A stretch of 49,799 nt of DNA, from positions 1 through 49,799 of the IMG/VR virus record IMGVR_UViG_3300032241_001796; one strand, given 5' to 3'. Positions 1 to 49,445 of the stretch are shown here, piece after piece. The position numbers were made by a program, and so were the translations under genes. This stretch comes from a virus. Positions within the stretch are counted from its first letter, which is position 1; the number at the start of each line of letters is the position of its first letter. The notes below the pieces were generated by a model. It was not told where the DNA came from and made no database searches. It was given only the letters and a program-made list of their open reading frames with translations.

Positions 1-123
1 ATGCAAGGGCTATTATTAAATATATCCGTAGTACACAGGGAATAGTGGGGTATGGACTATTGAATATCTACATTTTAAATTATTCCGATACTGCTATAAC
101 ATACCCTGTTTATTATAGTTCGG
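1..123. repeat. Terminal direct repeat, left copy (circular closure)
   Basis: Bases 1-123 are identical to bases 49677-49799. An exact overlap at both ends of an assembled contig normally means a circular or circularly permuted molecule. The tail gene that starts at 49445 continues in frame through the join, which supports a genuine closure. The unique genome length is therefore about 49,676 bp. Confidence 0.95.
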
Positions 124-2534
124 AACTTGATTTTAAAACATTTTCTGATGATGCGACAGCGCGGCAGGTATCAATAAGCACCCTTGACGGGCAGTTATAC
201 AGAGACTTGCAAAGCAGAGGAGATACCGAATTTAATGCGCCAATGTGGTTGAATATCGGAACTGATGCAAGCCCAGAGTGGGTAAGGAACGGCGATAATG
301 CTTTTGTATGCCACAACGGAATAAAGCTATTGTATAATGCTACTTTCGCGGGTAGTGCAACCGCAACAACGCCTACTACTTTTGAATTGTTTGGATTCTT
401 TGGCTCGAATTGCACATCATTAGGGCAAACCACATTTCCAGGTCTTAATCCCTACAATATCGTTCAAAATAATGGAGCTACCACATACATAGGCAATGAC
501 ATTTTACAGCCCCAGATACCACAAAGAAATCAGTCTACATGGCTAAATCAATATAACAACTCATTTTCAGGGTTAAACAACCCTAACTTTTATTCTCGGG
601 ATAACTTCTGCCTGAAAAATGCATTATTTACCGGGCAATCATTTCAACTAAATGTACAAGTAAAGGCATCTTTTGTTTCAAACGGAACAAGCGACCCATC
701 GCACGGTACAATTATCGTGAATGGTGCGCCAACATTGAATACCTTTTTGGGATTTGTGCTATTCGGTATTGACCCATCCCAAACGCCCGGAACTTTTGAC
801 GGGTTGCCTGACAAATACCATTCGACTGTATATGGTGATGACATTTGGGCTATCGCGCCACTACCTGGAGTGCCGACAACACAACCTGCAAGTACCTACA
901 CAAGCCAACTTTTAGGGTATATTCCTTTAGTGGATGGCACTAACGTAGTTGATATTAATTACGTTTCAAACCCGATGCTCATTACATTATTACCAAACTA
1001 TGTGTATGTGGTTGGGATGGTTTTTGATAATTATATCACAAATCCTTTTCAGGAAGTTTTTGGCGCGGGTGGTCTTGATGGAGGTTCAAATGCAAATTTC
1101 TCACTAACTGATTTACAGGTTTCTTTCTTTTCGGAATATAACCAATGGCCATCAAATGCCGCCCCGGTTCCGGCACCAAGCCTTAACCCTTCTGTATTCC
1201 CATCTATGCGGTTATGGTATTTAATGCAGTTGCTTACATCATACCTGCCAACGACAAATGCGGATGGGTACGGTTTCCCGAAACCAGTAACAACAGAGTA
1301 TACTTTCAAAAGCGATTTTCTTTCAGCGGGTTTATTCGGCACGCCCCCGGTAACGGTAAAAGATGTTGTGCCGTCTCAAATACATATTACCTCTTCTTAT
1401 TGCATCCATGATCTGCAAGGCAACCCATACATAACGGCAAGTGTAAAGCAGGGATTTAACTTTTGTAAAAAGGTGCTGGGGTGTGGTATGGGGATTGAGT
1501 ATGACATTAACAATAACCCGACCATCCTTAGAATAGAAGATTTGGGCTATTTCTTTGACAATACGACCATGATATTGGATTTGGGATATGATGTTACCGA
1601 ACTAACCATTACTCAATTAAACGTAGGATTAGGGGCAAATTTGAAACTTGGATATACAAAAGCAAATACAAATACGGATTTTGGAGTAGACCCGATAGCG
1701 ACTGAATTATTTTTTAATACCCCAGCTAATAATATACCTGGCACAATGGACTACGAGGAAAGCGATGTGCTTGTAGAACAATATGCCATTGAGAAAATAA
1801 GGGCGCAAGTTACAAGCCAACCGATAGGAACAACTTACGACCCGGCTAACCCGTCAACGGATAATCAGATAGTGGCTTTATACTGCTATCCTTCATCAAC
1901 AATAGGATTGCCAGATACCGCAAGCCCTATTTATAATTTTGCTCCTTATGACCCATCAAACAACCTTATAGATGTAATTGCCTTTACTCCCGTAGTTTTC
2001 CCGGATGCACAGAGCATAGACCCTGGGGCGGGTAGTGCAACATATGTATTTGGGGCTTATTATCCTGACACTTATATAAATCTACCATTATCACCATGCA
2101 GGGCATTGCAACGCGGCGGTGGTCAGCTATTACACTCTGTATTGGATGAAATGGATAGCGACAGCCTGACATTCAGAAATACTGGTGTAATGCAATATAA
2201 CAATACCGTTGTTGGGTTGTCTGGTATAGAGAGCAATTTAGTAATTGGCAGCGGTGCGGGGAATGTTACAACAGAGTTTAAGGACGTGCCGATAAATTCA
2301 CTGCCAACGCAGCTATTCAAACCAATTATACTAAAGTTTAAAAGCAAATACCCGGTAAATATGTACCAGATATTAAATAATAACCCTAACGGCTATGTTC
2401 GGTTTTTTTGGAACAATGAGGATGGATTTGGCAGTAAAGAGTACAAAGGTTTTATATCAAAAGTATTTCAGAGCGCAGCAACAAACGCACCTACCGAATT
2501 TGAACTATGGGCAACGCCGGATATGGTGATTTAA
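1..2534 (+). CDS. Tail hub / tail-associated protein, C-terminal 844 residues (starts at 49445)
   Basis: This is the main part of a 921-residue protein whose start (ATG at 49445) lies at the other end of the window. The frame is open across the circular join; the first full codon here is at base 3. It directly follows the tape-measure gene, where siphoviruses encode the distal tail or tail-hub proteins. The N-terminal pattern (W..L.I.W.R...Y.GIYRS, then F..NAR.I) resembles, from memory, a large conserved tail protein of Bacteroidota phages. No catalytic motif was recognised. It ends directly against a gene on the opposite strand. Role at the tail tip is inferred from position; the exact baseplate component is unknown. 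Confidence 0.7.
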   Translation, partial: ARAIIKYIRSTQGIVGYGLLNIYILNYSDTAITYPVYYSSELDFKTFSDDATARQVSISTLDGQLYRDLQSRGDTEFNAPMWLNIGTDASPEWVRNGDNAFVCHNGIKLLYNATFAGSATATTPTTFELFGFFGSNCTSLGQTTFPGLNPYNIVQNNGATTYIGNDILQPQIPQRNQSTWLNQYNNSFSGLNNPNFYSRDNFCLKNALFTGQSFQLNVQVKASFVSNGTSDPSHGTIIVNGAPTLNTFLGFVLFGIDPSQTPGTFDGLPDKYHSTVYGDDIWAIAPLPGVPTTQPASTYTSQLLGYIPLVDGTNVVDINYVSNPMLITLLPNYVYVVGMVFDNYITNPFQEVFGAGGLDGGSNANFSLTDLQVSFFSEYNQWPSNAAPVPAPSLNPSVFPSMRLWYLMQLLTSYLPTTNADGYGFPKPVTTEYTFKSDFLSAGLFGTPPVTVKDVVPSQIHITSSYCIHDLQGNPYITASVKQGFNFCKKVLGCGMGIEYDINNNPTILRIEDLGYFFDNTTMILDLGYDVTELTITQLNVGLGANLKLGYTKANTNTDFGVDPIATELFFNTPANNIPGTMDYEESDVLVEQYAIEKIRAQVTSQPIGTTYDPANPSTDNQIVALYCYPSSTIGLPDTASPIYNFAPYDPSNNLIDVIAFTPVVFPDAQSIDPGAGSATYVFGAYYPDTYINLPLSPCRALQRGGGQLLHSVLDEMDSDSLTFRNTGVMQYNNTVVGLSGIESNLVIGSGAGNVTTEFKDVPINSLPTQLFKPIILKFKSKYPVNMYQILNNNPNGYVRFFWNNEDGFGSKEYKGFISKVFQSAATNAPTEFELWATPDMVI

Positions 2535-2990
2535 TTACAAAGATGTAAGGTCGTAAATTGATGAACCCCATGTAAAAGTTAGTGTAGGTTGATTATTAAC
2601 CACATTTGAACCGGATATGTATTCACTTAGGGTAGAAGTATCAGAAACGGATCGATAAAAAACGGAGTAAATGTATGGGGAACTGGCATCTATCGGATTT
2701 ATAGCCCATAATTTTAATGCTGTGCCGCCCTGAATTAATGAAGGTAAAAAATAATTTTCAGTCGATGATTGAACAGCAAAAGTAACGGTAGTTGTAGGTG
2801 TTGTCTCTGTTACGGTTTGGTTACTATGGAATGTGATAGTATCGCCGCCACCCTGCAAAACATATTTCTTTTCCATTTGTACATGCATCGTAGTAGTTGC
2901 ATTTATAAATGGGGCATCAAGATTATTATTACTTGATTTGTGGCAACCCATAAAAATGATGCAGGCAGGCAATAGAAATAGTTTTTTCAT
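2535..2990 (-). CDS. Small lipoprotein on the opposite strand
   Basis: This 151-residue protein begins with a short basic N-terminus, a hydrophobic stretch and Phe-Met-Gly-Cys with Cys at residue 16, a lipoprotein signal peptide. The mature part is Ser/Thr/Asn-rich and beta-looking, without known motifs. No acidic residues follow the lipid-bearing Cys, so a Bacteroidota surface-export signal is not evident and it may face the periplasm. It abuts the tail hub gene tail to tail with no gap and has its own near-perfect promoter. Phage lipoproteins encoded near receptor-binding genes (Llp of T5 is the classic case) can block receptors against superinfection. That role is a hypothesis here; function is otherwise unknown. 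Confidence 0.75.
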   Translation of the reverse strand: MKKLFLLPACIIFMGCHKSSNNNLDAPFINATTTMHVQMEKKYVLQGGGDTITFHSNQTVTETTPTTTVTFAVQSSTENYFLPSLIQGGTALKLWAINPIDASSPYIYSVFYRSVSDTSTLSEYISGSNVVNNQPTLTFTWGSSIYDLTSL

Positions 2991-3045: not shown

Positions 3046-3081
3046 TTACCTTAGATTTTCCTCAATACCCTATCAAATGAA
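3046..3081 (+). repeat. Leader sequence shared with 10029-10064
   Basis: The bases just before and into this signal-peptide gene (AGATTTTCCT, then ACCCTATC, then AAATGAA) recur almost unchanged at 10029-10064 before the second signal-peptide fibre gene. A weak -7-like TACCTTTA at 3041-3048 precedes it. This suggests a duplicated 5' region and shared control. Confidence 0.65.
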
Positions 3082-6000
3082 ACGTTTAATATTCTTTCTG
3101 GCATTATTGCCGATGTTCGCACATGCGCAAGTAAATTATGATAGCCTTTACCGGACTTTATATATTCAATACAACCCTGCACCGTTTGGATTTACAAAAC
3201 TGATACTGCCAATAGATACGGCTAAGTTGCCGACATACACCCGCAATAATATAAAAGGCTCTCTTTGCTTTTTTAACAACAGTTTATATGTCAACAACGG
3301 AACTGGGTGGGCGGCGGTCGGTTCATCCAACTACTACGCAGGCTTCGGCATGGGGTTACACAATGACACATTTTATGTTGACACAACTAAAATAGCAACT
3401 AAATATCAATTACACGATAGTTTGGCGGGATATGCGACAACCGTAGCACTTACAGACACGGCGGCGGCGATACGTTCTGCGATCCCTTCTGGCGGAACTG
3501 CATCACTTACTGCTACATATATCGGTGTAGGTAATGGCAGTAATCAACTATCAGGCACTAATGATTTGAATTATAACACCACCTACGGTTTTTATGTTCA
3601 GCCCAATAATTTCCATGCTATGAATGTAGCTGCACCGGATGCAAGCCATATATTATTTCAGGCAGGGGACTATACTGGATATACAAATAACACCCACATA
3701 ACAGTTAACGATGCAATTCAGGAGGTAGATATTGTAGGTACAAACGTAGCTATTGATGGCAATATACTTAATGCTACTTGGGGTGGGTATGCAATAGGGT
3801 TGAATGTAGGGGGAACTAATTCAGATTTATCTGCTACCGGAGGTGCTGGTAATTACTTAAAACAATCTTCTCCCGGAGCCGCTATAACAGTAGGCACAAT
3901 ACCACTTACAGACATAACGGGTACGGCAGTATTAGCTACAACAGTTGCATTAACTGATACTGCCATTGCAAGGGCAGCAACAGCACAGACAAACTTGATA
4001 GATACGGCGGCAGCAATCCGATCATCAATACCCGTAGTTCCGTCAATTTATGTCAATAGCGTTGTAGGGACTGCGCCGGTTACAGCATCGGTAAGCACCC
4101 ACACAGTAACGGTAGGGATAAATACAATTACTGCCACTTCCGTACTGGCTAATACCACAACTGCAAATGCTACCCCGGCTCAGTCTATATCTTATTCCTC
4201 ATTGTTTGGAACTACAAGCAATTTAGTATCCAGAGACGCCAATGGAAACAGCCATGCTAATAATTTTGAAAGCCAAAGAGGTTCTGTAAACAGTTCTCCG
4301 CAAACACTAACATCAGGAAATCCAAGAATTACAGAGGCTACATTAGCCATAACAAGCACGCCAATACGTTTTAATCTAAATCCCGGAACAACATTTAATG
4401 CAGGACACGTCTTTGAAATTGATAATAATAGTAATTATGTAGATACAGTTTTTAATTATACCGGATCGCAGGTATCTTATAATGTACCCGGTTCCTACGA
4501 AATTCTTACACTAACAAATACGGTATCAAACGCCTGGGATAACCACTGGTTGCTACCTTCAACTTATATTGCCGGCACAAGTATTTTTAATATTTCAGGG
4601 GCGACATTAACGGCTGCTAATTTTTCGGGGACATCATCCGGCACAAATACAGGAGATCAAACAATAACATTAACTGGAGATGTTACCGGAAGTGGTACGG
4701 GTTCATTTACCACAACATTGAAAAACACAGGAACAGCGGGAACTTATGGCGGATCAGCCGGACAGTTATTAGGCATTACAACAGACGCACAAGGAAGGGT
4801 AAGCGGCACATCTATTTATACATTCACGCCAACATCTGGTACAGTTACAAGTGTAGGATTAGTGGCAGGTACAGGAATGTCGGTTACCGGAACATCTCCA
4901 ATTACTGGGTCTGGCACATATACGGTCGTAAACACATCTCCCGATAAAACCGTAACAATTACAGGGGCTACAGGGTTGAATGTTACCAGCGCATATCCAG
5001 CGTTTACGTTGACGCCTACGGGGGTTAATAGCGTGGTCGCTACGGGAGTAATGACCGCGACAGGGACAACAACAGTAACGGTAGGTATGCCTCAATCCAA
5101 CACATCAACAAGCGGCTATTTATCTTCAACAGACTGGAACACTTTTAATGGTAAGGGTTCGGGTAGTGTTACTTCCATACAGGTAGCAAGCAATGCAGCC
5201 GCATATTCAGTAACACCAACAAGCGCGGTAACATCAAGCGGCATTTATAGCATTGTGCCAACAGGAACAAGTGGACAATACGTAAAAGGTGATGGGACAT
5301 TAGGTACTTCAGTTAGTGGCACTGTTACTTCTGTAAAGGTCGTATCTAACCTTACCTGCTATACTGTTACGCCCACAACGTCTGTAACATCATCAGGCAT
5401 ATACAGTTTAGTTGCTACGGGTACATCTTCGCAATTCGCAAAGGGTGACGGCAGTTTGGATAATAATACTTACCTAACAGGCAACCAGACAATAACACTC
5501 ACGGGCGCAGTAACAGGTAGTGGCGCAACTTCAATAGCAACCACATTAGCTGCTTCAATAGTTGGTACAGCAAATCTATCTGCCACAGGAACACCATCGG
5601 CAACTACCTATTTATCCGGCACGAATGTATGGAGTACCCCGACAGCAGGCCCGGGCGGATCGAATACCCAAGTGCAATACAATAATAGCGGGTCTCTTGG
5701 GGGCGCTTCAAACTTACTTATAGCAGCAGATGGGAATGCACTACATGCTACAAGTGTTTATACAACCGCAGTCACAGCACCATCAAGTGGAAATATAAAA
5801 GTGTATGGCAACAGCATAAACGGACAGGATGAGCTTTGGACAAGCAATAGCGCGGGTGTAGATATTCAGGTAGAAACATTTTTAGGTCAGCACCAATGGG
5901 GTTTGTGGACTACAAACGGTACATCTACTCAACAGCAGGGATTTTTCACAGCCGCGACAAGCACTTCTGGTACATCAACATTTAATCTAAGGACTTATGA

Positions 6001-6583
6001 TGCAACCAACCTTGCACCCAACCTTATGTACAACAAGCTGACGGGTTCGGCTTCTCCTAATAATCAAGTGGAGATATGGTTTGGATACACGGGAAGGGAT
6101 GCAATGATTGGAAATAATACTTACGGTGGTGGTAGTAAATTAGTGATTGATTGCGCCCTGCCATCTTATGTATCTACGCAGCGTTTCTTTGCAGGTTATA
6201 CTTCTACATTTGGACAAATATCTACAACAACAGACCCATCGGCAGTTTTAAATATCATAGGCGTAGGCAAGGATGCGGCAGACGCTACCTTGCAATTTAT
6301 GTTTAATAATGGTTCGGGAACGGCAACCAAAGTAAATACAGGTATTACTCCGACTGTAAATGATGAATACATTATCACAGTTACATTGCCATCAAATACT
6401 GCATCTTCAACTGTAACTATTGAAAGGAGAACTAAATCGACAAGTACAAAAAACAGCGCGACAAACAGTGCGAAAATACCATCGGCAGGAACTTTAATGT
6501 ATTGGCATGCTATGAGTAATTCCGCAGCAGCTTCAACAGCTCCGGTTATTGGCATTAAACAAGTATGGGAGGAATTGTATTAA
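3077..6583 (+). CDS. Large Ser/Thr/Gly-rich tail fibre-like protein with Sec signal peptide
   Basis: A 1168-residue protein. It opens with a signal peptide (MKR, hydrophobic core, A-H-A | Q-V), then D-S-L-Y typical of secreted Bacteroidota proteins. The middle carries recurring phage-fibre phrases: GTVTSV repeats, GDVTGSGTG, YLSSTDWNTFNGK, and QVQYNNSGSLGG. The last ~270 residues differ (aromatic, ending in VWEELY) and may be the receptor-binding or lectin-like tip. Neighbours are tail genes on the same strand. A cleavable leader on a virion fibre is odd: either the protein is exported, or the hydrophobic start is a virion anchor. A weak -7-like TACCTTTA lies ~30 bases upstream. Confidence 0.75.
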   Translation: MKRLIFFLALLPMFAHAQVNYDSLYRTLYIQYNPAPFGFTKLILPIDTAKLPTYTRNNIKGSLCFFNNSLYVNNGTGWAAVGSSNYYAGFGMGLHNDTFYVDTTKIATKYQLHDSLAGYATTVALTDTAAAIRSAIPSGGTASLTATYIGVGNGSNQLSGTNDLNYNTTYGFYVQPNNFHAMNVAAPDASHILFQAGDYTGYTNNTHITVNDAIQEVDIVGTNVAIDGNILNATWGGYAIGLNVGGTNSDLSATGGAGNYLKQSSPGAAITVGTIPLTDITGTAVLATTVALTDTAIARAATAQTNLIDTAAAIRSSIPVVPSIYVNSVVGTAPVTASVSTHTVTVGINTITATSVLANTTTANATPAQSISYSSLFGTTSNLVSRDANGNSHANNFESQRGSVNSSPQTLTSGNPRITEATLAITSTPIRFNLNPGTTFNAGHVFEIDNNSNYVDTVFNYTGSQVSYNVPGSYEILTLTNTVSNAWDNHWLLPSTYIAGTSIFNISGATLTAANFSGTSSGTNTGDQTITLTGDVTGSGTGSFTTTLKNTGTAGTYGGSAGQLLGITTDAQGRVSGTSIYTFTPTSGTVTSVGLVAGTGMSVTGTSPITGSGTYTVVNTSPDKTVTITGATGLNVTSAYPAFTLTPTGVNSVVATGVMTATGTTTVTVGMPQSNTSTSGYLSSTDWNTFNGKGSGSVTSIQVASNAAAYSVTPTSAVTSSGIYSIVPTGTSGQYVKGDGTLGTSVSGTVTSVKVVSNLTCYTVTPTTSVTSSGIYSLVATGTSSQFAKGDGSLDNNTYLTGNQTITLTGAVTGSGATSIATTLAASIVGTANLSATGTPSATTYLSGTNVWSTPTAGPGGSNTQVQYNNSGSLGGASNLLIAADGNALHATSVYTTAVTAPSSGNIKVYGNSINGQDELWTSNSAGVDIQVETFLGQHQWGLWTTNGTSTQQQGFFTAATSTSGTSTFNLRTYDATNLAPNLMYNKLTGSASPNNQVEIWFGYTGRDAMIGNNTYGGGSKLVIDCALPSYVSTQRFFAGYTSTFGQISTTTDPSAVLNIIGVGKDAADATLQFMFNNGSGTATKVNTGITPTVNDEYIITVTLPSNTASSTVTIERRTKSTSTKNSATNSAKIPSAGTLMYWHAMSNSAAASTAPVIGIKQVWEELY

Positions 6584-6619: not shown

Positions 6620-7738
6620 ATGTCTAATCCTATAGCCGACTTTCCCGCTTCAAATTCAGTTTATATTAGTGATCCAACAGGATTACCAGTATTAGGACAA
6701 AGCCCATTCGGGGTATATGGTATTCAAGATTGGATGTACCCGGCACAATACCAAAGCAAAGTTACTTTTGATGATGAAATGAACTTTACAGTCCATATAC
6801 AGGGGGATACAACGGGATTGCAGAATGGGGATGCTAAATTATACCTGCTCGACTATTACGACCCAATTAACGGAACTTATAAAATTGCCGGGACTAACAT
6901 TTATATTCCGGTCGGGGCATCTAACTACTATACGCCGACAGTGGGCGCAATTGATTTGAATGTAGCACCTTATTTTAAGGGTAAGCAGCAGATCGCAGGG
7001 AATTATTACAACAACCCACTTTCGACAGATAACGGAACGCCACTAAAAACATTCATGTGGTCGTTTTCATTCAGCGATTTGAGCATATCAACAGCGGGTA
7101 CTTACTACCTTATGCTTGTGAATAGATTACACCTTGACGAACCAAATACTAATACCTATACCCCATATTTTAGTGAGCCAATGATGGTACAAGCATCATG
7201 GAAGAAAACATTACTTTTTCAAAGTACCTTCAACACAAATAAAAGTGATAACTGGAATATTGTGGTAACAGGATGGTTCAATGACTATCCGGCCAATACA
7301 CAAACATATACCCCGATATTTCAAAACAGATGTGAAGGGTATGTTATTGACTATGACCCAAAAGCAGTACAGGTAAGTTACCTCCAACAGTCTTACCAGG
7401 CATTGCAGACATTCGGGAAATGGGTGCGAATGAAAACTTTGAAAATCGGGGAATTGGAGCGAGGCATCCCGCCGCATATTTTAGAGGCTATTTCTGCTCA
7501 AATACTGGCAGATACCTACTACATAAACGGCTATCCTTACATTAACTTCAATACTTCAAATTCAACCCAATTAGGGGATATGTGGAAGTCCCGCAGGCCG
7601 AATGATGCTTACCCGTTAATTTATGCTTCAACTATGATTATGGAGAAGTATCAGGGACAGGGAGCTATCGTAACACCGCCGCCGCCAGTACCTACCCGTT
7701 ATTTTGACCCTGCTTCTTTTAGTCCGGGATTTGCATAG
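6620..7738 (+). CDS. Putative tail / baseplate protein
   Basis: A 372-residue protein of unknown family. It is rich in Tyr, Asn and Thr, has no signal peptide or membrane segment, and ends in a Pro-rich tail (PPPPVP). Placement after the tail hub and fibre genes, before the accessory island, argues for a virion tail component or fibre chaperone. The Asn/Tyr-rich composition resembles the tail hub protein encoded upstream, but I see no clear shared domain. The start at 6620 follows a TAAATTTG element. Confidence 0.55.
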   Translation: MSNPIADFPASNSVYISDPTGLPVLGQSPFGVYGIQDWMYPAQYQSKVTFDDEMNFTVHIQGDTTGLQNGDAKLYLLDYYDPINGTYKIAGTNIYIPVGASNYYTPTVGAIDLNVAPYFKGKQQIAGNYYNNPLSTDNGTPLKTFMWSFSFSDLSISTAGTYYLMLVNRLHLDEPNTNTYTPYFSEPMMVQASWKKTLLFQSTFNTNKSDNWNIVVTGWFNDYPANTQTYTPIFQNRCEGYVIDYDPKAVQVSYLQQSYQALQTFGKWVRMKTLKIGELERGIPPHILEAISAQILADTYYINGYPYINFNTSNSTQLGDMWKSRRPNDAYPLIYASTMIMEKYQGQGAIVTPPPPVPTRYFDPASFSPGFA

Positions 7739-10028: not shown

Positions 10029-10064
10029 GTGATAGATTTTCCTTAACACCCTATCCAAATGAAG
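10029..10064 (+). repeat. Leader sequence shared with 3046-3081
   Basis: AGATTTTCCTTA, ACCCTATCC and AAATGAAGCG closely repeat the leader of the fibre gene at 3077. TACATTTG just upstream (10022-10029) is a good -7 box, ~29 bases before the start codon. Confidence 0.65.
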
Positions 10065-11435
10065 CGTATCCTTACCCTGCTCTTACTGAGCATTGCAATA
10101 AGCGCACAGGCGCAAATATCCATTACAACCCGCGTAGATAGTGTCTATGCAATCAATAACAGGCAGATAACCACATCAGTACCCCCAAATCTTGTTTATC
10201 CCGTTCAAGTAGGTTCCAAAACAGATAGCCTTTGTGCTATTATCAATTCATTGGTAGATACCGTCAATAACATTGTTGGTACTACTTTGGGCTTGCAAAC
10301 GGTAACAGACAATCTTGATACGACAAACAATTCAATGACGGTTGGGGATGGTACATTTTATACGGTACATTCACCCATAGGAATAACCACAGTAAAAAAA
10401 TCGGGTAACATGGTGGAATCCTATTTGGGCTATATATCCGGCAAAATATCGCTATTGCTAAAAGACGTGGCAACCACAAATTATTTTTATGTAAATAGTG
10501 GCACCTTAACAGCTAATCATTTTGGATATTTCCCCAATGAAGGAACCAGCGGCGGCGGCATACCTTCGACCTTTGTACTTCACCATACTATTTACCCGAT
10601 CACTGTAGATAATACAGGCAGTGGCGACAGCACAGTAATTGCGCAAGGTTCAATTCAATTATACGCCCCACCTGTTACCAGCCTTAATATGCATAGTTGG
10701 CTTACTCCATTCTCCTTACATTTTGGGCAGATTAACACAGCTCATACGCATATTGATGGGCTAACGGTAGGGTTTACAGCAGATGGAAGCAACTACGCCC
10801 AAAACTTCCAGAACGACACAGGGGCAATTGCTCTTGTGCATAATATCACGGATGCAATTGCAGCAAGTACGACAGTTACACCCACTTATTTCGCTTATGG
10901 CAATACAGATGGCACACTTACATCAAGCCCAGATGCAATATTTAATCGTGGAAATGAAATATCTTTTGGTATTTCCGGCATGCAACTAATGGATTTATCG
11001 AGGCCGGCAGGTAATATTACAGCTTCGCTTGGCGATGCTGCAAATTCAACTAATGGAACTAAAATTGTTATTGCAGATAACTCAAAATCCACAACAATAA
11101 CTAACGCATTTGCATTAAAAGCAATACAGGTATATACAGTTGGAGGTAGTGTAACAATGAATGATGGAACACCTGGGATGCGGTATGACCCAGCTACGCT
11201 ACAATCAAGCGCAACAATAACAACATGCGCCAACCCGGTAGATGGGCAGCAAATGACTATTTATTTTGGGGGGACAACATTAACAGGGCATGGTACGCGT
11301 GTAATTACATTACTGACGCTGGCTGCCAATGCGGGGCAAAGTCTGGCGGGTATAATCGTTCCGAATCTTGCCACAACAAGTACAATATTACACCTCGTTT
11401 GGATGGCAGATATAGCAACATGGTATGTTTGGTAA
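10059..11435 (+). CDS. Second fibre-like protein with Sec signal peptide
   Basis: A 458-residue protein with a clear signal peptide (MKR, Leu-rich core, A-Q-A | Q-I) followed by Ser/Thr/Gly-rich beta-type sequence. The C-terminal ~60 residues (GTTLTGHGTRVITL, then IADIATWYVW-like aromatic end) resemble fibre tips. Its leader and signal peptide are close relatives of those of the 1168-residue protein at 3077. It opens the block that includes the lysis genes. A fibre, secreted adhesin or decoy are all possible. Confidence 0.65.
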   Translation: MKRILTLLLLSIAISAQAQISITTRVDSVYAINNRQITTSVPPNLVYPVQVGSKTDSLCAIINSLVDTVNNIVGTTLGLQTVTDNLDTTNNSMTVGDGTFYTVHSPIGITTVKKSGNMVESYLGYISGKISLLLKDVATTNYFYVNSGTLTANHFGYFPNEGTSGGGIPSTFVLHHTIYPITVDNTGSGDSTVIAQGSIQLYAPPVTSLNMHSWLTPFSLHFGQINTAHTHIDGLTVGFTADGSNYAQNFQNDTGAIALVHNITDAIAASTTVTPTYFAYGNTDGTLTSSPDAIFNRGNEISFGISGMQLMDLSRPAGNITASLGDAANSTNGTKIVIADNSKSTTITNAFALKAIQVYTVGGSVTMNDGTPGMRYDPATLQSSATITTCANPVDGQQMTIYFGGTTLTGHGTRVITLLTLAANAGQSLAGIIVPNLATTSTILHLVWMADIATWYVW

Positions 11436-11723: not shown

Positions 11724-11833
11724 TGCACCACCCGAATACATATAGCATGATAATTACTGAGGCAGCTGTATTGGCTGTTTTGTGTTATCATATTTTCAAG
11801 CGTGTTGGCTGGGACTGGTTTATAAATAACTAA
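11723..11833 (+). CDS. Single-helix mini membrane protein
   Basis: A 36-residue frame (MHHPNTYSMII, hydrophobic core AAVLAVLCYHIF, aromatic end WDWFINN) linked to both neighbours by TAATG overlaps at 11721-11725 and 11831-11835. The double overlap strongly supports translation. Could be a holin partner or small regulator of lysis. Confidence 0.6.
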   Translation: MHHPNTYSMIITEAAVLAVLCYHIFKRVGWDWFINN

Positions 11834-12030
11834 TGAAAGCACTACTTACCATATTATTTCTATTTGCATCAATAAGCGATTTTGGGCAGGTAACACGGCG
11901 TGAAGTGAAGATAGCGAAGCGCCAATACTTGAATGAGAAACGCCCGGAATGGCGGGAGATAGATAGCCTTTTTTATGTGGGGATGAAAAGAATAAGACAC
12001 GATCAGCATTTTCGGATAATTAAACGATAA
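11833..12030 (+). CDS. Small exported basic protein
   Basis: 65 residues with a signal peptide (MKALLTILFLFASIS, then F-G-Q-V) and a very basic mature part rich in Arg/Lys. Location within the lysis operon suggests a cell-envelope role such as a spanin-like function, but no lipobox or coiled coil is present. The family is not recognised. Start overlaps the preceding stop. Confidence 0.55.
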   Translation: MKALLTILFLFASISDFGQVTRREVKIAKRQYLNEKRPEWREIDSLFYVGMKRIRHDQHFRIIKR

Positions 12031-12702: not shown

Positions 12703-12875
12703 TGAACGGGGAAGAAACAAGGGAACAGGGTTATAGTCCCAATCCGGTCAAGCCCAAGATATTATTCGGCAAGACGTTTTCCCTTGCTTCGTTTTTATCA
12801 TTATTCGAAAGGAAGAAAAAAGAAACTTTGAAAGAGGACTTGAGGCCGGAGATACCAGAAAGCAATGTGCAATAA
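12702..12875 (+). CDS. Small charged protein
   Basis: A 57-residue frame (MNGEETREQGYSPNP start, basic KKK centre, acidic end) joined to the previous stop by TAATG at 12700-12704. It contains a short hydrophobic patch (TFSLASFLSLF). It lies immediately before the endolysin; function unknown. Confidence 0.55.
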   Translation: MNGEETREQGYSPNPVKPKILFGKTFSLASFLSLFERKKKETLKEDLRPEIPESNVQ

Positions 12876-12909
12876 ATGCACTTTCCTTTTAAAAGCAAAA
12901 ATTAAAGTT

Positions 12910-13449
12910 ATGGCAGACTTTTCAGCGGCACAACCTTATATCTTAGCCAATGAGGGCGGATATTGCGATACAACCGGGGATACGGGTGGAGAAACCTACA
13001 TGGGAATTTCCCGTAACAACTGGCCTAATTGGGGCGGGTGGTCTTTAGTAGATGCTCACCAACCTTTGCACTACAATGAAATCATTGCTGATGACAACCT
13101 AAACAGCCTTGTAAATCAGTTCTACAAAAGGAACTTTTGGGACACGATGCTTGGGGATGGCATCGACAGCCAAGCGGTAGCGACTTACCTATACGACTTT
13201 CACGTAAATGCTGGCGGTAACGCTGTTAAATGCGTTCAGCGTGTAGTTGGTTCAAATCCCGATGGAATGTTTGGTAATGGTACGCTAAATGCGTTAAACA
13301 ACTATTCCGGTGATCTGCTTTCAGACCTTAATAATTCCCGAATTGCATATTATACAGAAATATCCCAAAATGGTGCAAATGCTAAGTTTTTGAATGGATG
13401 GTTAAAGAGGGCAAATGATATGTACGCTAAACTTAGCGAAGGGACATAA
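12910..13449 (+). CDS. Endolysin, glycoside hydrolase family 108-type muramidase
   Basis: A 179-residue protein. The start has the GH108 signature EGGY with the likely catalytic Glu at residue 15, followed by DTGGETYMGIS. The C-terminal part (VNAGGNAVKCVQRVVG, then DGMFGNGTLNAL) matches the associated peptidoglycan-binding fold. It should cut the glycan backbone of the cell wall and release progeny once holins open the inner membrane. ATG 12910 is chosen over an upstream ATG at 12865 because the protein then begins exactly where the family does. It ends the late operon and is followed by a terminator. Confidence 0.85.
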   Translation: MADFSAAQPYILANEGGYCDTTGDTGGETYMGISRNNWPNWGGWSLVDAHQPLHYNEIIADDNLNSLVNQFYKRNFWDTMLGDGIDSQAVATYLYDFHVNAGGNAVKCVQRVVGSNPDGMFGNGTLNALNNYSGDLLSDLNNSRIAYYTEISQNGANAKFLNGWLKRANDMYAKLSEGT

Positions 13450-23505: not shown

Positions 23506-24393
23506 ATGGCTACGCAAATTTTCAATTCTTACAGAGAATTTTTAACCAGACAAGACAAAAGCATCAATGGTGTAGATGCTGAATTTGTAAATGACAACCC
23601 AGAATGGGAAAAGCAAAACGAAAGCAATAAATCATGTTGGAACTGCTCTGACTGCTCTGGCTGCTCTGGCTGCTCTGGCTGCTCTCGCTGCTCTCACTGC
23701 TCTGACTGTTCTGACTGCTCTGGCTGCTCTCGCTGCTCTGGCTGCTCTCGCTGCTCTCACTGCTCTGACTGTTCTGACTGCTCTGGCTGCTCTCGCTGCT
23801 CTGGCTGCTCTCGCTGCTCTCGCTGCTCTGACTGTTCTGACTGCTCTGGCTGCTCTCGCTGCTTTGACTGCTCTGACTGCTCTGGCTGCTCTGACTGCTC
23901 TGACTGCTCTCGCTGCTCTCACTGCTCTGACTGCTCTGACTGCTCTGGCTGCTCTGGCTGCTCTGACTGCTCTGACTGCTCTGGCTGCTCTGACTGCTCT
24001 GGCTGCTCTCGCTGCTCTCGCTGCTCTCGCTGCTCTGGCTGCTCTGACTGCTCTGGCAAAAAAGACATAAACCCTTTTATTGTCCCTGTGATAGAAAATA
24101 TACATCAAAAAGTATTAGAGGCAGTAAGCCAACCAAATGCCCTAAATATGGGTGATTGGCATACTTGCGATACAACACATTGCCGCGCTGGATGGGTTGA
24201 AGTATTAGCAGGTGAAGCAGGAAAAGAACTTTCCAGAAGAACATCTACATTATTTGCAGGGATGCAGATATATGCAGCATCATCCGACATAGAGGTAAGT
24301 CCGGTTCGGTTCTTTGAAAGTAATGAGGTTGCAATGGCTGATATGAAAGCGTGTGCAGAAGCAGAAATAGAAGCAAACAAAAACAAGCAATAA
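23506..24393 (+). CDS. Cys-Ser-x triplet-repeat protein
   Basis: A 295-residue protein. Residues 1-43 are an ordinary charged domain (SYREFLTRQDKSINGVD). Residues 44-184 are 47 consecutive triplets, all starting with Cys; all but the first (CWN) and one (CFD) are C-S-x with x limited to Asp, Gly, Arg or His. Residues 185-295 form a separate domain (NALNMGDWHTCDTTHCRAGW, then STLFAGMQIYAASS and VRFFESNEVAMAD) that I recall in other phage proteins, some with pentapeptide-like repeats. The triplets could form a regular beta-solenoid with Cys ladders, binding metal or a surface partner. Function unknown. Strong own promoter. Confidence 0.8.
   Translation: MATQIFNSYREFLTRQDKSINGVDAEFVNDNPEWEKQNESNKSCWNCSDCSGCSGCSGCSRCSHCSDCSDCSGCSRCSGCSRCSHCSDCSDCSGCSRCSGCSRCSRCSDCSDCSGCSRCFDCSDCSGCSDCSDCSRCSHCSDCSDCSGCSGCSDCSDCSGCSDCSGCSRCSRCSRCSGCSDCSGKKDINPFIVPVIENIHQKVLEAVSQPNALNMGDWHTCDTTHCRAGWVEVLAGEAGKELSRRTSTLFAGMQIYAASSDIEVSPVRFFESNEVAMADMKACAEAEIEANKNKQ
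23635..24057 (+). repeat. Forty-seven tandem 9-base units with 63-base super-repeat
   Basis: Units are TGCTCT plus GAC, GGC, CGC or CAC. Nearly all variation is confined to the first two bases of the third codon. Units 6-12, 13-19 and 20-26 (23680, 23743, 23806) are copies of a 63-base block. A silent TGT in the fourth unit of each copy shows that they arose by duplication. Confidence 0.9.
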
Positions 24394-30165: not shown

Positions 30166-30351
30166 ATGAAAAGCTACATCATCAATTTTTTATCAATCGT
30201 GATTTCTGTTATCTGCTGGGGCGTATGTATTTGCATAGGTATATATGGAAATAAGTTTTGGGAAAGTTTCGCAACAGGAGCGGTTTTTAATATGCCAATG
30301 ATTATTGTTAACAGTGTTTTGTTTTATCGCAATTATAAAAACAAAATATAG
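30166..30351 (+). CDS. Two-helix membrane protein
   Basis: A 61-residue protein with two membrane helices (about residues 5-27 and 37-54) and a basic end (YRNYKNK). Four bases before a lipoprotein gene, so the two may act together in the envelope. Confidence 0.6.
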   Translation: MKSYIINFLSIVISVICWGVCICIGIYGNKFWESFATGAVFNMPMIIVNSVLFYRNYKNKI

Positions 30352-40127: not shown

Positions 40128-41252
40128 ATGGCTGCTTCAGATAATTTTGGCAACTCGGCACTCCTCGGATTTCAGGGGCGCATGTTAAAGAACCTTGCAC
40201 AATTCGAAACAAGGGAATTGGACACAATGGCGCTCGTTTACGCGCTGGAAAATCAACAGGTTTACGAAAATCTTTATGACGTTAACTCGGTGAAACAATC
40301 CGCGCAACGTCCTTTGTACCTGTATGCTTTCAACCGTATAACCACCGCAAACGGTTCCGGTATGACCTCGTTCCCGACAGGTGGGCAGGGAACAACAGCG
40401 CAGATCGCCCTTTCCTTCGTTTCCTTCACGCAGAACTTCTCGACATGGAACGTCAACGGCTTGGATAACGTTGAGGACTTCGACAGGATATTCGCTAATG
40501 CCAGCACACAGGCAATGCGCCAGATACGCACAGGCTTGCGGCAATATATCACCAACTTCCTGTACACCAACCGTACACAGGTAGGGGCTTCTTCTTCTGG
40601 CACCGGGGTATTGAAGGGTGCGAATTTCAATGCAACGACAAACTGTTTTGAGATTTCAAGCAACCAGCCTTACTCCATCATGGAGAGCGTGATGCAGCAG
40701 AACGGATATGGTGATTACTATTATGATATGTTCTGCGATACAGCGATGTACCAGAACTTCCGTTTCAGTTCACAGCAAGGCTCAATGAACGCCACCAACC
40801 TGGCATGGCAGTTCGCTAAGATGCCTACCAAACCCGGCAGCGGCTATCTCGATAACCTTTGGCAAGACCTGAACCTCGGTACAACAGTACCGATACAGAG
40901 CCAATACACCACAGGTACATGCCTGATGATGCCAACGAGCCAGCCTTTCGCTTTCGTTACATGGATGCCAGCATTGTACTATGCAGACCTGCCAAACAAC
41001 AAAGGCAAGCTGAACAACATGGATGCCTTTGCATCATACAATGGCGGATATGGCACCATAGGAGATGACAAGCTGAAAAAGCTGAACTACATGCTGTTCG
41101 GGTGGAACACACAGACCGATACATCGGCGCAGAATGGCCTTGCACAATCACAGGTGCAGCAATGGCAGATAGGCGTAAATGTGGCTATGATTACCGCCTA
41201 TATCAGCAATGCCGGTGAAACAACCATCTACCAGTTTGCTCTTGTTCCATAA
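40128..41252 (+). CDS. Major capsid protein
   Basis: A 374-residue protein. Size, position after scaffold, its own promoter and a strong terminator all indicate the most abundant virion protein. The sequence is Asn/Gln/Tyr/Met-rich with a helical start (NLAQFETRELDTMALVYALENQQVYENLYD), consistent with an HK97-like capsid, though no diagnostic motif is visible. It forms the head shell. Confidence 0.75.
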   Translation: MAASDNFGNSALLGFQGRMLKNLAQFETRELDTMALVYALENQQVYENLYDVNSVKQSAQRPLYLYAFNRITTANGSGMTSFPTGGQGTTAQIALSFVSFTQNFSTWNVNGLDNVEDFDRIFANASTQAMRQIRTGLRQYITNFLYTNRTQVGASSSGTGVLKGANFNATTNCFEISSNQPYSIMESVMQQNGYGDYYYDMFCDTAMYQNFRFSSQQGSMNATNLAWQFAKMPTKPGSGYLDNLWQDLNLGTTVPIQSQYTTGTCLMMPTSQPFAFVTWMPALYYADLPNNKGKLNNMDAFASYNGGYGTIGDDKLKKLNYMLFGWNTQTDTSAQNGLAQSQVQQWQIGVNVAMITAYISNAGETTIYQFALVP

Positions 41253-41374: not shown

Positions 41375-41911
41375 ATGAAAAAGATACTTTTTTTGTCAGC
41401 CCTTACAAGCCTTATCACTTTATCGGCCTTTGCGCAAGTACCAACATCTGCAACATTCCCGCCTAACCAATTGCTGATACAGCGGTTGAATACGCAAAAC
41501 TATACGCAGCTTACCCCTACGTACTATCACGGTGCCGGGACTAATGCAATAGTAGGACATGATACCCTGATGGGTGTAGATACCATTGCGATGTTCTGGC
41601 AGTTCGGTGCGCCATACAACCTGAAACTATCCATTAAAACCAATGTGCTTACTGATAGCCTGGTTGGACATATTTACGCCTTTGCAAGTGAAGATAATGT
41701 AACATGGCAGGCAGTTACAGGGATTACTACTGTATGTACTACCTGCGTAGGGGCAAGCCAGACATTATCAGCTACTACCGGCGTACATAGGTATGTATAT
41801 GATCTGGGTAATACTAATTTTCCTTACTGGAGAGTATGGGTTACAAGTTCCGGCGCACCTGATACAGTGGTATGTACGGGTGTGGGGATATATGCAGGCA
41901 CAGGAAACTAA
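41375..41911 (+). CDS. Exported protein in the virion gene block
   Basis: A 178-residue protein with a clear signal peptide (MKKILFLSALT, then A-F-A | Q-V). The mature part is beta-type, Thr-rich, with CTTC spaced Cys and an Ig- or jelly-roll-like look (TIAMFWQFGAPYNLKLSI). It lies between capsid and tail genes. Either a secreted factor made late, or a virion decoration whose leader is retained. Third protein in the genome with Gln directly after the cleavage site. Confidence 0.65.
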   Translation: MKKILFLSALTSLITLSAFAQVPTSATFPPNQLLIQRLNTQNYTQLTPTYYHGAGTNAIVGHDTLMGVDTIAMFWQFGAPYNLKLSIKTNVLTDSLVGHIYAFASEDNVTWQAVTGITTVCTTCVGASQTLSATTGVHRYVYDLGNTNFPYWRVWVTSSGAPDTVVCTGVGIYAGTGN

Positions 41912-41923: not shown

Positions 41924-43228
41924 ATGGCATTACCTGCAATACAAGGCGCATCAAGTTTTTTCGTAGGGGCAAACTCGACTTATACCAACGCAACAGCAGG
42001 TGGTGTATGGTCAAGCGGTGATAATACTATTTTAACGATTGATGGTGCAACAGGAATAGCCACAGGAGTAGCGGAAGGTGCAACGCAAATAATTTATACG
42101 GAAGGGGGGAATAGCACAGCCCTGAACGTACAAATAAACCAAGTAGGCCAGATAACAAACGGATTCAACCCTACACTTGTTTTAGGGGCATTGCAAAATG
42201 AAATCCTTTGGCCATCACAAGGTACAAGCAATTCGGGCAGATACTTTCCCAACTTTCACCCGATATGCGATGAAACAATACTAAAAGCTCTTTGCAATAC
42301 AGGTACGGATTACCCAACGTTCCTAAGTTCTTTGAATAAATCGTGCATACTTGATTGTGTAAATGCAGTTTACAACAAACCGCAGCTTATTGACAAATCA
42401 AAGTTAGTGTTCCAGCGTTCAGACATAATGCTGGTTACACAACCGGTAATGAACCAAGACCCACCACAGTTTGTAGGTTTGAAGTTCCAATTGGCACCGG
42501 GAGATTACGGGATTAAGGTGAGTAACCTGATGTTATTTTTCAATGAGACGATAACATTTCCTATCTACCTGTACAATGACTTTGACGAAGCCCCTCTGTA
42601 TAAGTTGATGGTTACGACAAGTGCCAACCAACAGAAGATAATAAACCTGCAAAATAATGTGTTCCTGAATTACCTCACTCCTTCGATAAATAAAGGTGGT
42701 ATATGGTACTTAGGGTATTATCAGGCAGATGTAATCGCGGCAAGCGCAACAGCAAAAGCGATATTTTACCCGATAGTCATCAACACTTTCCATCCGGTAG
42801 TATGTTGGTCGTATTCAGCGCCTACTTTCATAGATAGCCTGAATCAGTTGAATTTCCAGAGGCAGATAGTCGGGGCAAACAACCTCACCTATGGAATGAA
42901 CTTGGAAATATCAACGATGTTGGATGCAACCAATGACATTGTAGAGAATCCCTCATTATGGGATAATCTGATAGGCTTAAAGATGGCCTGCAAGGTGATT
43001 GAGCATTGCATATTCTCTTATCGTAGAAATGATGTGCAAAGCATAGTGCAGAGCCTCGGAGGTTTGGACAGATTGAATACGGAATTGAATGGCAAAAGTG
43101 CAAACTGGCAGGATGGTTCACCAAAGATAGTAGGACTGATCGAAAAGGTAAATGATGCTGTTCAGACCGTGAAACAAGGCTTTGAGAATGAATTTTTTGG
43201 GGGTGTAGGTTTGATAAAAGTTGACTAA
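41924..43228 (+). CDS. Virion protein with N-terminal Ig-like (Big_2) domain
   Basis: A 434-residue protein. Residues ~20-78 fit a bacterial Ig-like group 2 domain (GGVWSSGDNTILTIDGATGIATGVAEGATQI pattern). The remaining ~350 residues are an unrecognised globular domain followed by a helical end. Ig-like domains decorate capsid or tail proteins and bind cell-surface sugars. Position suggests a head-tail connector or decoration protein. Twelve bases after the exported protein. Confidence 0.65.
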   Translation: MALPAIQGASSFFVGANSTYTNATAGGVWSSGDNTILTIDGATGIATGVAEGATQIIYTEGGNSTALNVQINQVGQITNGFNPTLVLGALQNEILWPSQGTSNSGRYFPNFHPICDETILKALCNTGTDYPTFLSSLNKSCILDCVNAVYNKPQLIDKSKLVFQRSDIMLVTQPVMNQDPPQFVGLKFQLAPGDYGIKVSNLMLFFNETITFPIYLYNDFDEAPLYKLMVTTSANQQKIINLQNNVFLNYLTPSINKGGIWYLGYYQADVIAASATAKAIFYPIVINTFHPVVCWSYSAPTFIDSLNQLNFQRQIVGANNLTYGMNLEISTMLDATNDIVENPSLWDNLIGLKMACKVIEHCIFSYRRNDVQSIVQSLGGLDRLNTELNGKSANWQDGSPKIVGLIEKVNDAVQTVKQGFENEFFGGVGLIKVD

Positions 43229-45793: not shown

Positions 45794-46663
45794 ATGCAGC
45801 ACAAAAATATTTCTTCAAAAGTTCAGGGTTGGATATTCATATCGCTGGTACTCCTTTGGGTGCTGGTTTTAACTTTTTTGTTCAACTTCGGACATTGGAA
45901 GTATGGGATATCTGTTTTCCTGCTTCCTTTCGCCATAGAGTACGTTTGCCGGTGCATAAAAGCAAAAAAGGTAATAGTACCCCATAAGGAGAAAAAACCC
46001 ACAAATACCCACAAAATAACACCGGAATTGCCCGCTAACCTGATTACCTCAATATCTGTGCTTACGGTTTACCAGTTTACAAGGTGCTATGCTTATGATG
46101 ACCTGAATGTTTTGGACGTATGGCATGTGAAACCGGAAGGATGCAGACAGGGTCAACATGGGGAAATAAAGAAGTGTTGGGAGCATTTATTGAGCGATTA
46201 CCATGCAGCCGTAAAGAATGACAATCTCATTAACCGGATAAAACTCATGCGCCGAAAGACGATCATTGATATACGGAAGGAAACGGCAGATAAGTTCGGG
46301 ACGATGCTAAAAGAAGCATATAGCCCACACCTTGCCGGGGAACTGCGCAAAATATTCAAAGAGTACAAACTCACTATTGATACGGTGCATAAAGACCTTA
46401 AACAACTGCAAACCGCATTGATAAAAGAGAAAAGGGAACGGGACAGGATTGTGAGGGAACTTGATGATATGGACAAGGGAATAAAAAAAGACCTTACCCC
46501 GGAAGAAAAGGAAATCGATATAGTGGATATGCTTATAGAAATACGCAAGCATGAGCAAACGAACTACAATGCAAAGGAAATGACGGTTTTGGAATTTGCC
46601 CGGTGCCAAAACAGGTTAACGGCTCATTATGAAAGACTAAAGCAACAAACAAACAATGGCTGA
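45794..46663 (+). CDS. Membrane-anchored helical protein before tape measure
   Basis: A 289-residue protein. Two hydrophobic segments at residues ~11-32 and 36-53, a basic linker, then a Cys-containing region (FTRCYAYDDLNVLDVWHV) and ~130 residues of charged helix. It occupies the slot where tail-assembly chaperones lie, just before and overlapping the tape-measure gene by eight bases, but chaperones are normally soluble. The C-terminal half may still act on the tape measure. Confidence 0.55.
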   Translation: MQHKNISSKVQGWIFISLVLLWVLVLTFLFNFGHWKYGISVFLLPFAIEYVCRCIKAKKVIVPHKEKKPTNTHKITPELPANLITSISVLTVYQFTRCYAYDDLNVLDVWHVKPEGCRQGQHGEIKKCWEHLLSDYHAAVKNDNLINRIKLMRRKTIIDIRKETADKFGTMLKEAYSPHLAGELRKIFKEYKLTIDTVHKDLKQLQTALIKEKRERDRIVRELDDMDKGIKKDLTPEEKEIDIVDMLIEIRKHEQTNYNAKEMTVLEFARCQNRLTAHYERLKQQTNNG

Positions 46664-49445
46664 CGCGATTAGTAATATAGTTGACCCCTCGGTCTATCCT
46701 GAATTAGACAAGCTCATAGCCAAATTGGTTGATGTGGAAGGGGAGATTACGACCATCAATAACAAGAACATATCCATAATGGTGGATATGAAAGGGGCGG
46801 AGAATCTTACAAGATTAACCGAACTTATCAACCAGCAGCAGGTAAATATTGAGAAACTGAATGGTAGCACACAGGAGTATATTGGAACTGCTAATCAATT
46901 AGGGCAAGTACAAGCACAAATAGGAACAGCATCAGCGGCTACTGTGCGCACCCTTGTGGAGCAAAAGCAAGAATTGGGTTATGTAAACCAACAGATAAAA
47001 TTCCTTAACCAAGACCTTGCAATTGGGGCGGGTAATTATGAAAAAAATATAGCTCTACTTACTACCTATACCCAACGCCAGATACAGCTAAAACAGGAGA
47101 TAAACCAAACATCTACCGCGCTCAAAGATGTAACCGTAAATGTAAATCAGACTAATAATTCATTTACTGTAATGGGTGTGAATGTGGAATCAGTATTTGC
47201 AAGAATGGCAGTAAGAATGATTGCCATGCAATTACTTTTTGTCCCGATCATTGACGGGATTACGGCGGCGGTTGAATGGTTTACAAAACTTTCAGATGCG
47301 GAACAATTGGCGGCAGATAGATTGAAAGAATACAATGATGAAATGAAAGAAACGGCGAATATAGCAGCCGGAGAAAAGGCATTAACTACAGCAAATATTA
47401 TAAAGGAAAGGCAAGAAGCAGATAGATTGATTTCTACTCTTGCGGATGAAAAGGCAACGCGTTTGGCAAAACTGGATGCTATAAAGCAATTGCAAGCATT
47501 ACAACCAGGATTATTGAATGGTTATAAAGAAGAAGCATTATTGAATCTCAAAAGTACCGATGAAATACAAAATCATTCAAATGCTATAACCAATTTAGAA
47601 GGTAAAATAAATTCGCTGAATAAAACCTACAATGCACAGGTAGATATTTTTTCAAAGACAAAAGACAAAGTAGATGATTTGAAAAAAGTGTACGGTGATA
47701 AATGGATGGAAGGTGATAAAACTACCGCCGCGAATTTCACAAAGCAATTGGACGATATGACCAAATCGGGCATTGAGCTTGATGCGCTGAAACGTCAATT
47801 AGCTAATATAGATAGCCCGGAAGAAAATCTAAATAAGCCAAAAAAAGAAAAATCAGATTACGAAATAAAGAAACGGGCTATTGAGGCGGAATTCGAATTG
47901 AATAAAAGGAGAATTGAGGGTGAAAGAGATACTGCAAAAAAAATACTTGATAATGAAGATCTTTCTCTAAATGAAAGATATAAAGCAAACTTTGATTATC
48001 AGGCTTCCCTTATTGACTTATCATCGAATGAACTGAATAAGGGGAGGAAAATAAATAATCTCGATGTAGAATATAAAAAGGAAAACCCCAAAACAGCACT
48101 TGATAAAAATAAAGCCGAGGCATTAAAATATGAAAATGATTTTCAGAAAATAAAAGCTGATGGCATCGCTCGTATAGATGCTATGCAGAAAGCATCTGAT
48201 GAAAAATGGGTAAAGTCTCAAAAAGATAAATTTGAAGAATCGCAGGCACTTGAATTGCATAACTCGGCTTACGAGGAAACTTTACTCAATAAGCGGCTTA
48301 AAAACAATCTTATAAGTCAGGAAGATTATGAAACAGAACTTGATAAACTTTTAGAAAAAAGGAAAGAAAAGGAACTTGAAGCGCAATTAGCATTTGATAA
48401 AGAACTCGCATTTAGTGGAAAACTAACTGATGATGAAAAAGCCGCATTACTTAAAAAAATTGCTCAATTAGAGGCGGAAATTGCCGCTCTTACAGGCAAG
48501 AAGAAAAAAGATGATGAAAAGCCGACCGGGGCTTTCCCGGAATTGGAGCAAGGTATTGCAGATTTAAAACCAGTAGAAGGTGAAAACCCACAGCAAAAGT
48601 TTGCGCGAGAACTTGACGCACTTAAAAACTTTAGTGCGCAATCAATAGAAATTTATCAGGAATTAGCCGCAGCAATCAAGCAAATAAATGATAACCAAAT
48701 AGCGCAGGAACAGCAGAACCTTGAAATAAAAAGCAGGGCGATACAATTAGCCTACCGGGAGCAGGTAGACGCAGTTAATGCAAGCGCGGGCTACCAGATT
48801 ACTAAAGAAAACGAACTCGCTAAAATGGCCGCTCAAAATGCCGCGCAGCAAAATGCCATACAACAGCAGCAGAACCAATTAGCACTAAAGAAAGCTATTA
48901 GTGATAAGACGGCGGCAGAGGCCGGGATTGTAGCGAATACAGCCCTTGCAATAACCAAGGCTTTACCTATGCTTGGCACACCTGCAACAGCAGCGATAGG
49001 GGCAGCGGAAATCGCTTTAATATCCGCTATTGGCGCGGTACAATATGCGGCGGCGGCATCCACACCATTACCACAATTTGAGGGTGGTGGTACAACTTAC
49101 ACCAAATACTTCATTGCAGGTGAAGCAGGGGCGGAGAGAATGACAACCCCTGATGGACAAACAATGATTGCAGATAAGCCCGGTATCTATTCAGCACCAA
49201 TAGGCACAAAGATTGATACGGCAGCGGAAACAGCGGCACTTATGAGGTTTGCATCGGCTAATATCGGATTGTCTGTTGACAGCAGGGGCGAATTAAAAGA
49301 GGGAAAAAATGAAATGACTGATAAGCGGATAGTTGAAAAGCTGGATGACCTGAATGATACTATGCGCCAAACTGCAATGATGCAAAAGACTATTAAAAAC
49401 CATATCAATATATCAGGCCGTAATGACCTGCAACTTTATCAATAA
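46656..49445 (+). CDS. Tape measure protein
   Basis: A 929-residue protein: coiled-coil start, hydrophobic segment near residues 183-205 (ARMAVRMIAMQLLFVPIIDGI), long charged helices, a hydrophobic Ala-rich segment (ALPMLGTPATAAIGAAEIALISAIGAVQYAAA region), and the typical end (FEGGGTTYTKYFIAGEAGAERMTTPDGQ). It sets tail length and helps DNA ejection; at ~1.5 angstrom per residue a tail of ~140 nm is expected. The stop overlaps the tail-hub start. Confidence 0.9.
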   Translation: MADAISNIVDPSVYPELDKLIAKLVDVEGEITTINNKNISIMVDMKGAENLTRLTELINQQQVNIEKLNGSTQEYIGTANQLGQVQAQIGTASAATVRTLVEQKQELGYVNQQIKFLNQDLAIGAGNYEKNIALLTTYTQRQIQLKQEINQTSTALKDVTVNVNQTNNSFTVMGVNVESVFARMAVRMIAMQLLFVPIIDGITAAVEWFTKLSDAEQLAADRLKEYNDEMKETANIAAGEKALTTANIIKERQEADRLISTLADEKATRLAKLDAIKQLQALQPGLLNGYKEEALLNLKSTDEIQNHSNAITNLEGKINSLNKTYNAQVDIFSKTKDKVDDLKKVYGDKWMEGDKTTAANFTKQLDDMTKSGIELDALKRQLANIDSPEENLNKPKKEKSDYEIKKRAIEAEFELNKRRIEGERDTAKKILDNEDLSLNERYKANFDYQASLIDLSSNELNKGRKINNLDVEYKKENPKTALDKNKAEALKYENDFQKIKADGIARIDAMQKASDEKWVKSQKDKFEESQALELHNSAYEETLLNKRLKNNLISQEDYETELDKLLEKRKEKELEAQLAFDKELAFSGKLTDDEKAALLKKIAQLEAEIAALTGKKKKDDEKPTGAFPELEQGIADLKPVEGENPQQKFARELDALKNFSAQSIEIYQELAAAIKQINDNQIAQEQQNLEIKSRAIQLAYREQVDAVNASAGYQITKENELAKMAAQNAAQQNAIQQQQNQLALKKAISDKTAAEAGIVANTALAITKALPMLGTPATAAIGAAEIALISAIGAVQYAAAASTPLPQFEGGGTTYTKYFIAGEAGAERMTTPDGQTMIADKPGIYSAPIGTKIDTAAETAALMRFASANIGLSVDSRGELKEGKNEMTDKRIVEKLDDLNDTMRQTAMMQKTIKNHINISGRNDLQLYQ

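Follow-up and report, generated by a model that had tools for sequence, protein, structure and literature searches.

Our analysis suggests that part of the virion of the phage described here is made outside the host cytoplasm: two tail fibres and a capsid decoration protein would be exported, processed and docked onto particles at lysis, a reading to which we assign a probability of about 0.55. Tailed-phage particles are taught to be assembled wholly in the cytoplasm. The window, by which we mean the whole 49,799-nucleotide stretch that was analyzed (IMG/VR record IMGVR_UViG_3300032241_001796), encodes three proteins with predicted Sec leaders of the Bacteroidota Q-rule type (hereafter, tagged proteins). 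The proposal is built on these leaders and how well they are conserved, on the place of the tagged genes in virion operons and on the virion annotation of similarly tagged proteins in three other Bacteroidota phages. The original prediction, made from the sequence alone, had offered three options: surface adhesins, decoys shed to block receptors, or fibres attached after export. The third fits best, since adhesins and decoys explain neither virion detection in relatives nor the slot that one of the genes occupies.

The window covers an entire phage genome, whose ends carry a 123-bp direct terminal repeat and are spanned by the tail-tip gene (start at 49445, stop at 2534; Table 1). Relatives of its capsid gene were found in Chitinophagaceae and Flavobacterium genome bins (genome-contig scan, alignment A5), which makes a Bacteroidota bacterium the very likely host. 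An unsystematic look through the window revealed no integrase-like gene. Three other genes drew attention: a 731-aa protein (18365-20560) that, read by eye, appears to combine helicase and DNA-methylase portions, a 295-aa protein (23506-24393) in which Cys-Ser-x repeats follow one another over a long stretch (CSDCSGCSRC...), and an ORF at 30305-30553 in which an internal start yields a second lipoprotein leader (MKKILLIIALGVCGC).

Table 1. Features discussed in the text; positions refer to the window unless a contig is named
Feature	Position	Strand	Remarks
Tail-tip protein; full gene from 49445 across the 123-bp terminal repeat	45..2534	+	
Lipoprotein, lipobox IFMGC, between tail tip and fibre	2535..2990	-	
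Upstream element TTTTCCTCAATACCCTATC, common to 10037-10055	3056..3074	+	
Tail-fibre-like protein, 1168 aa; leader 3077-3127, predicted cut after AHA, mature Q18	3077..6583	+	
Leaderless conserved protein between the two tagged fibres	6620..7738	+	364-aa counterpart in L137
Upstream element TTTTCCTTAACACCCTATC ahead of second tagged fibre	10037..10055	+	
Second fibre-like protein, 458 aa; leader 10059-10112, AQA/Q	10059..11435	+	Leader-bearing orthologue in G001 (L137:7238-8689)
Lysis-region protein, 65 aa; leader end DFG/Q; weak signal peptide	11833..12030	+	
Endolysin, GH108 and peptidoglycan-binding domain	12865..13449	+	
Major capsid protein (MCP)	40128..41252	+	31% to annotated Pan5 MCP; profile matches PDB capsid protein, E 2e-6
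Putative head-decoration (cement-slot) protein, 178 aa; leader 41375-41434, AFA/Q; predicted beta-sandwich	41375..41911	+	
Head-tail adaptor slot	41924..43228	+	Synteny with Pan5 adaptor
Tape measure-like protein	46656..49445	+	Inferred from length and place before tail-tip gene
777-aa pectate lyase copies	L158:44100-46433, L161:2563-4896, L166:10530-12863		

The Q-rule is established for substrates of Bacteroidota signal peptidase I (PMC5837995; PMC10653852). Leaders ending in A-x-A followed by Gln had been claimed for the proteins at 3077, 10059 and 41375, and direct reading and a rule-based test both bore this out. Each of the three leaders, MKRLIFFLALLPMFAHA/QVNY, MKRILTLLLLSIAISAQA/QISI and MKKILFLSALTSLITLSAFA/QVPT, respectively, combines a K/R n-region, a hydrophobic core without charge, A-x-A and Gln. 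Applied to the 60 non-overlapping ORFs of at least 60 aa in the window, the test returned exactly these three. Shuffled N-termini gave a mean of 0.24 passing (P for three or more = 0.0007), none of 2000 random internal segments passed, and in a comparison set of mostly unrelated phages only 2 of 736 genes (≥100 aa) did so. By sequence, the three proteins are thus candidate Sec/signal peptidase I substrates of the Q-rule type. The lysis-region protein at 11833, proposed to carry a comparable leader, does end in G/Q (MKALLTILFLFASISDFG/Q), but its signal peptide is weak, and we left it out of the count because the Asp at -3 is unfavourable for signal peptidase I. Pfam searches found no type IX sorting domain in the proteins at 3077, 10059 or 41375, and type IX secretion cargo was rejected on the lack of this C-terminal domain.

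Just 5' of the start codons of both tagged fibre genes lies a near-identical 19-bp sequence, with no other copy anywhere in the window, which suggests joint regulation. The minus strand also carries a lipoprotein leader (IIFMGC), overlooked earlier, in a gene whose stop abuts that of the tail-tip gene; contig L059 likewise has a lipoprotein straight after its tagged fibres. The window lipoprotein is possibly a superinfection-exclusion protein.

The assignment of the fibres rests on a gene placed behind the tail-tip gene and on repeats common with known fibres. The repeat of the protein at 3077 is common among phage fibres, and its C terminus shows weak laminin-G-like lectin similarity. Among phages in general, 70 of its 73 complete repeat relatives are leaderless; the leader-bearing ones are in L057, its duplicate L073, and L059, and their leaders end in Q and are Bacteroidota-like. 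(The L057/L073 leader was found by the Q-rule test; a first rule set had scored a weak match in L074 instead.) Tagged proteins nevertheless recur in seven further lineages (G001, G006, G009, G010, G011, G012 and Pseudanabaena phage Pan5), encoded either immediately after the tail tip or within the fibre region; G001 has both an orthologue of the protein at 10059 and a counterpart of that at 3077. Domains in these relatives include a polysaccharide lyase and a laminin-G lectin domain (Pan5), tail-spike and esterase-like domains (G012) and a virion structural domain (G009); as judged from sequence, they are of the receptor-binding and depolymerisation types. The mature N terminus of the tagged fibres resembles that of the leaderless, MS-annotated gp60/61 of phage phi18:1, a suggestive likeness (P = 6e-4 over 43 columns, with an hhalign probability of only 28%). 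Since several Bacteroidota phages (phi18:1, phi12:1, phi14:2, phi38:1, P12002L and BF503P1) have leaderless fibres, export is not required in phages of this phylum.

The protein at 41375 had been taken for a generic late protein. Its gene instead occupies a slot between the major capsid protein and adaptor genes and, by position and predicted fold, is a head gene for a capsid decoration (cement) protein whose binding to the capsid is putative. Phage Pan5 shows the same gene order, with an annotated cement protein in the slot that carries a leader ending ...SITQA/Q. Contigs were located via their capsid or terminase gene, and in all of the about 11 distinct phages with a slot gene between MCP and adaptor (the window, L086, L087, L114, L115, L120, L123, L125, L131, Pan5 and MD05, with the near-duplicates L120/L121 and L123/L124 counted once each) that gene has an A/Q or G/Q leader. 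L123/L124 have two such genes, and L131 is a Chitinophagaceae bin. In related phages that lack the slot gene, the adaptor follows the capsid gene immediately. In an alignment of ten family members (A6), the only invariant columns are M1, Q21 and D107, the remainder being 16-31% identical, so the Gln at +1 is one of three residues conserved throughout. Pan5 (L082) and MD05 (L111), in which we observed Bacteroidota-type Q-rule leaders and capsid relatives, are recorded under cyanobacterial and Rhodobacteraceae names, respectively, and 16S reads assigned only 70.1% of the Pan5 source culture to Pseudanabaena; both host labels deserve checking.

The protein at 41375 was modelled as a beta-sandwich, with an overall pLDDT of about 60 and core values mostly of 65-78. 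Fold comparison of this modest model returned carbohydrate-binding-module and jelly-roll matches (TM mostly 0.3-0.55), which support a beta-sandwich only. The protein had no Pfam match and no significant PHROG or PDB profile match, and a decoration-profile match to PDB 9efk chain T (E = 0.06) was dropped as too weak. With a single protein as query, short-peptide searches for relatives returned none, and with an alignment they recovered just two contigs, both known before; tblastn found none with the L115 and L150 queries and only Pan5 with L125. These searches having yielded no new relatives, no leaderless decoration protein was available for comparison.

Virion fibres had been presumed not to be exported, a premise contradicted by Cellulophaga phages phi10:1, phi19:1 and phi39:1, in which at least eight proteins with Q-rule signal peptides, fibres and pectate lyases among them, are listed as virion components on the basis of MS/MS; these statements are notes in GenBank records and concern phages other than the window and its close relatives. 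They comprise four consecutive proteins in phi10:1 (gp091, gp092, the pectate lyase gp093 and the tail fibre gp094), gp101-103 in phi19:1 and gp26 in phi39:1, in which gp25 is a probable further case. Secreted proteins that co-purify with particles could be an alternative source of such detection. The tagged non-structural proteins phi10:1 gp058 and phi19:1 gp061 carry no MS note, which argues that the detection is not merely that of any exported protein. As MS annotations place similarly tagged proteins in virions, the window phage and its many tagged relatives may export part of the particle and fit it on at lysis.

These annotations also bear on an alternative that we consider unlikely, namely, that the exported proteins are not virion parts and instead coat the infected cell or are shed, blocking receptors, superinfection or re-adsorption of progeny to debris. 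Export is what the leaders most simply indicate, the fibre has a lipoprotein gene as its neighbour both in the window and in L059, and some phage proteins that are exported, lambda Lom and Bor and T5 Llp among them, do act on the cell surface. The Q-rule proteins of Porphyromonas gingivalis phages, of reportedly unknown function, have also been read as surface modifiers (PMC10367356). Against such a role stand the tagged fibres annotated by MS/MS as virion proteins and the decoration gene, whose sole location is the slot between capsid protein and adaptor; genes for surface-acting cargo would not need to lie there.

Bacteroidota O-glycosylate periplasmic proteins at D-S/T-[AILVMT] (PMC8550257), for which an extended motif has been described; in P. 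gingivalis the motif is absent from the most abundant surface proteins (PMC8729774). The tagged proteins of the window contain this site of Bacteroidota O-glycosylation substrates, their glycosylation itself being predicted. In a first data set, tagged phage proteins held 113 motifs versus 62 expected from shuffles, whereas S/T-rich untagged proteins held 103 versus 101, the reversed motif was at expectation, and leaderless fibres of other phages held 130 versus 222. In mature tagged proteins the motif was enriched in the window (17 versus 7.9 expected), G012 (29 versus 10.6) and Pan5 (20 versus 5.3), close to expectation in G006, G007 and G011, and depleted in the Cellulophaga phages (10 versus 28 expected in their tagged proteins; phi10:1, 5 versus 10.8; phi19:1, 1 versus 5.4; phi39:1, 1 versus 5.7), a lineage split in sign that was drawn post hoc and over related proteins that are not independent. 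The depletion in Cellulophaga phages, together with the near-expected counts in G006, G007 and G011, rules out glycosylation as a universal purpose of export. In our reading of these sequences, chains that pass the periplasm may be selected for or against sugar, and the departure of the statistics in both directions suggests that the mature chains do pass it.

This last point weighs on a dual fate, in which an unexported fraction would keep its leader and assemble in the cytoplasm while the exported fraction has its role at the cell surface. Folding ahead of translocation is possible for long fibre-repeat proteins, and a dual fate would account for virion detection without docking at lysis. 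The strict conservation of leader and Gln in divergent decoration proteins and the two-way departure of the motif statistics from expectation speak against it, and we regard it as improbable. That the leaders are passengers, captured with whole host secreted-adhesin genes and without a role in the phage, is very improbable: Bacteroidota chromosomes do encode secreted proteins with similar leaders and cassettes do move, but leader and Gln are retained across the entire decoration family and a tagged gene follows a capsid-like gene in G010 as well (L150:5377). One moving cassette is a tagged 777-aa pectate lyase, present with the same first 60 residues in phi10:1, phi19:1 and phi13:2 (two families), which by sequence is a mobile, presumably exported depolymerase cassette.

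Under the proposed assembly outside the cytoplasm, the head, tube and tail tip of the window phage would form in the cytoplasm from leaderless proteins, and the two fibres and the decoration protein would be exported by host Sec. Host signal peptidase I would cut before the Gln, which would be cyclised to pyroglutamate, and in the window lineage the tagged proteins are probably also O-glycosylated at D-S/T-[AILVMT] in the periplasm. There they would wait, docking on particles once the cell has been opened by the endolysin. Such docking is physically reasonable, since both decoration proteins and T4 fibres can attach in vitro to completed particles. We see an even chance that the same holds for many Bacteroidota tailed phages, with DNA-filled head and tail made in the cytoplasm, fibres, depolymerases and decoration proteins matured in the periplasm as secreted and, in some lineages, glycosylated proteins, and the two sets joined at lysis.

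If this is true, the virion surface and host range of phages in a phylum that dominates gut and aquatic habitats would be shaped by the host's secretion, glutaminyl cyclase and O-glycosylation, and fibres produced recombinantly in the E. coli cytoplasm would lack their true N terminus and any glycans. A signal peptide would then also be no ground for excluding a Bacteroidota phage gene from the virion. Isolates in which export can be tested (phi10:1, phi19:1 and phi39:1) and their MS data already exist. Our survey covered mainly the open-access literature, which held no report linking Q-rule leaders to virion proteins, and the novelty of this link is limited to that literature.

Among known systems, the filamentous phage coat proteins pIII and pVIII are likewise synthesised with a Sec signal peptide and become part of the virion, but they assemble in the inner membrane during extrusion, with no tailed capsid and no lysis. 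Decoration proteins of the Hoc, Soc and gpD type and the long fibres of T4, which attach in vitro, are late add-ons that bind finished particles; unlike the tagged proteins of the window, they are leaderless and made in the cytoplasm. The Q-rule proteins of P. gingivalis phages share Bacteroidota signal peptidase I leaders but were interpreted as modifying the host surface, with no tie to virion parts (PMC10367356). Cellulophaga phages phi10:1, phi19:1 and phi39:1 resemble the window in having Q-rule fibre and pectate-lyase genes behind the tail proteins, with products annotated as virion proteins from MS/MS; they differ in their capsid families, in that no tagged gene was seen right after the capsid gene, and in the depletion of the O-glycosylation motif that is enriched in the window. 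Pan5 (ON968456), whose structural proteins were reportedly identified by MS, is annotated as a cyanophage and its MCP is only 31% identical to that of the window, yet it has the same succession of MCP, tagged cement protein, adaptor, tail tip and tagged fibres, one of the fibres being a polysaccharide lyase.
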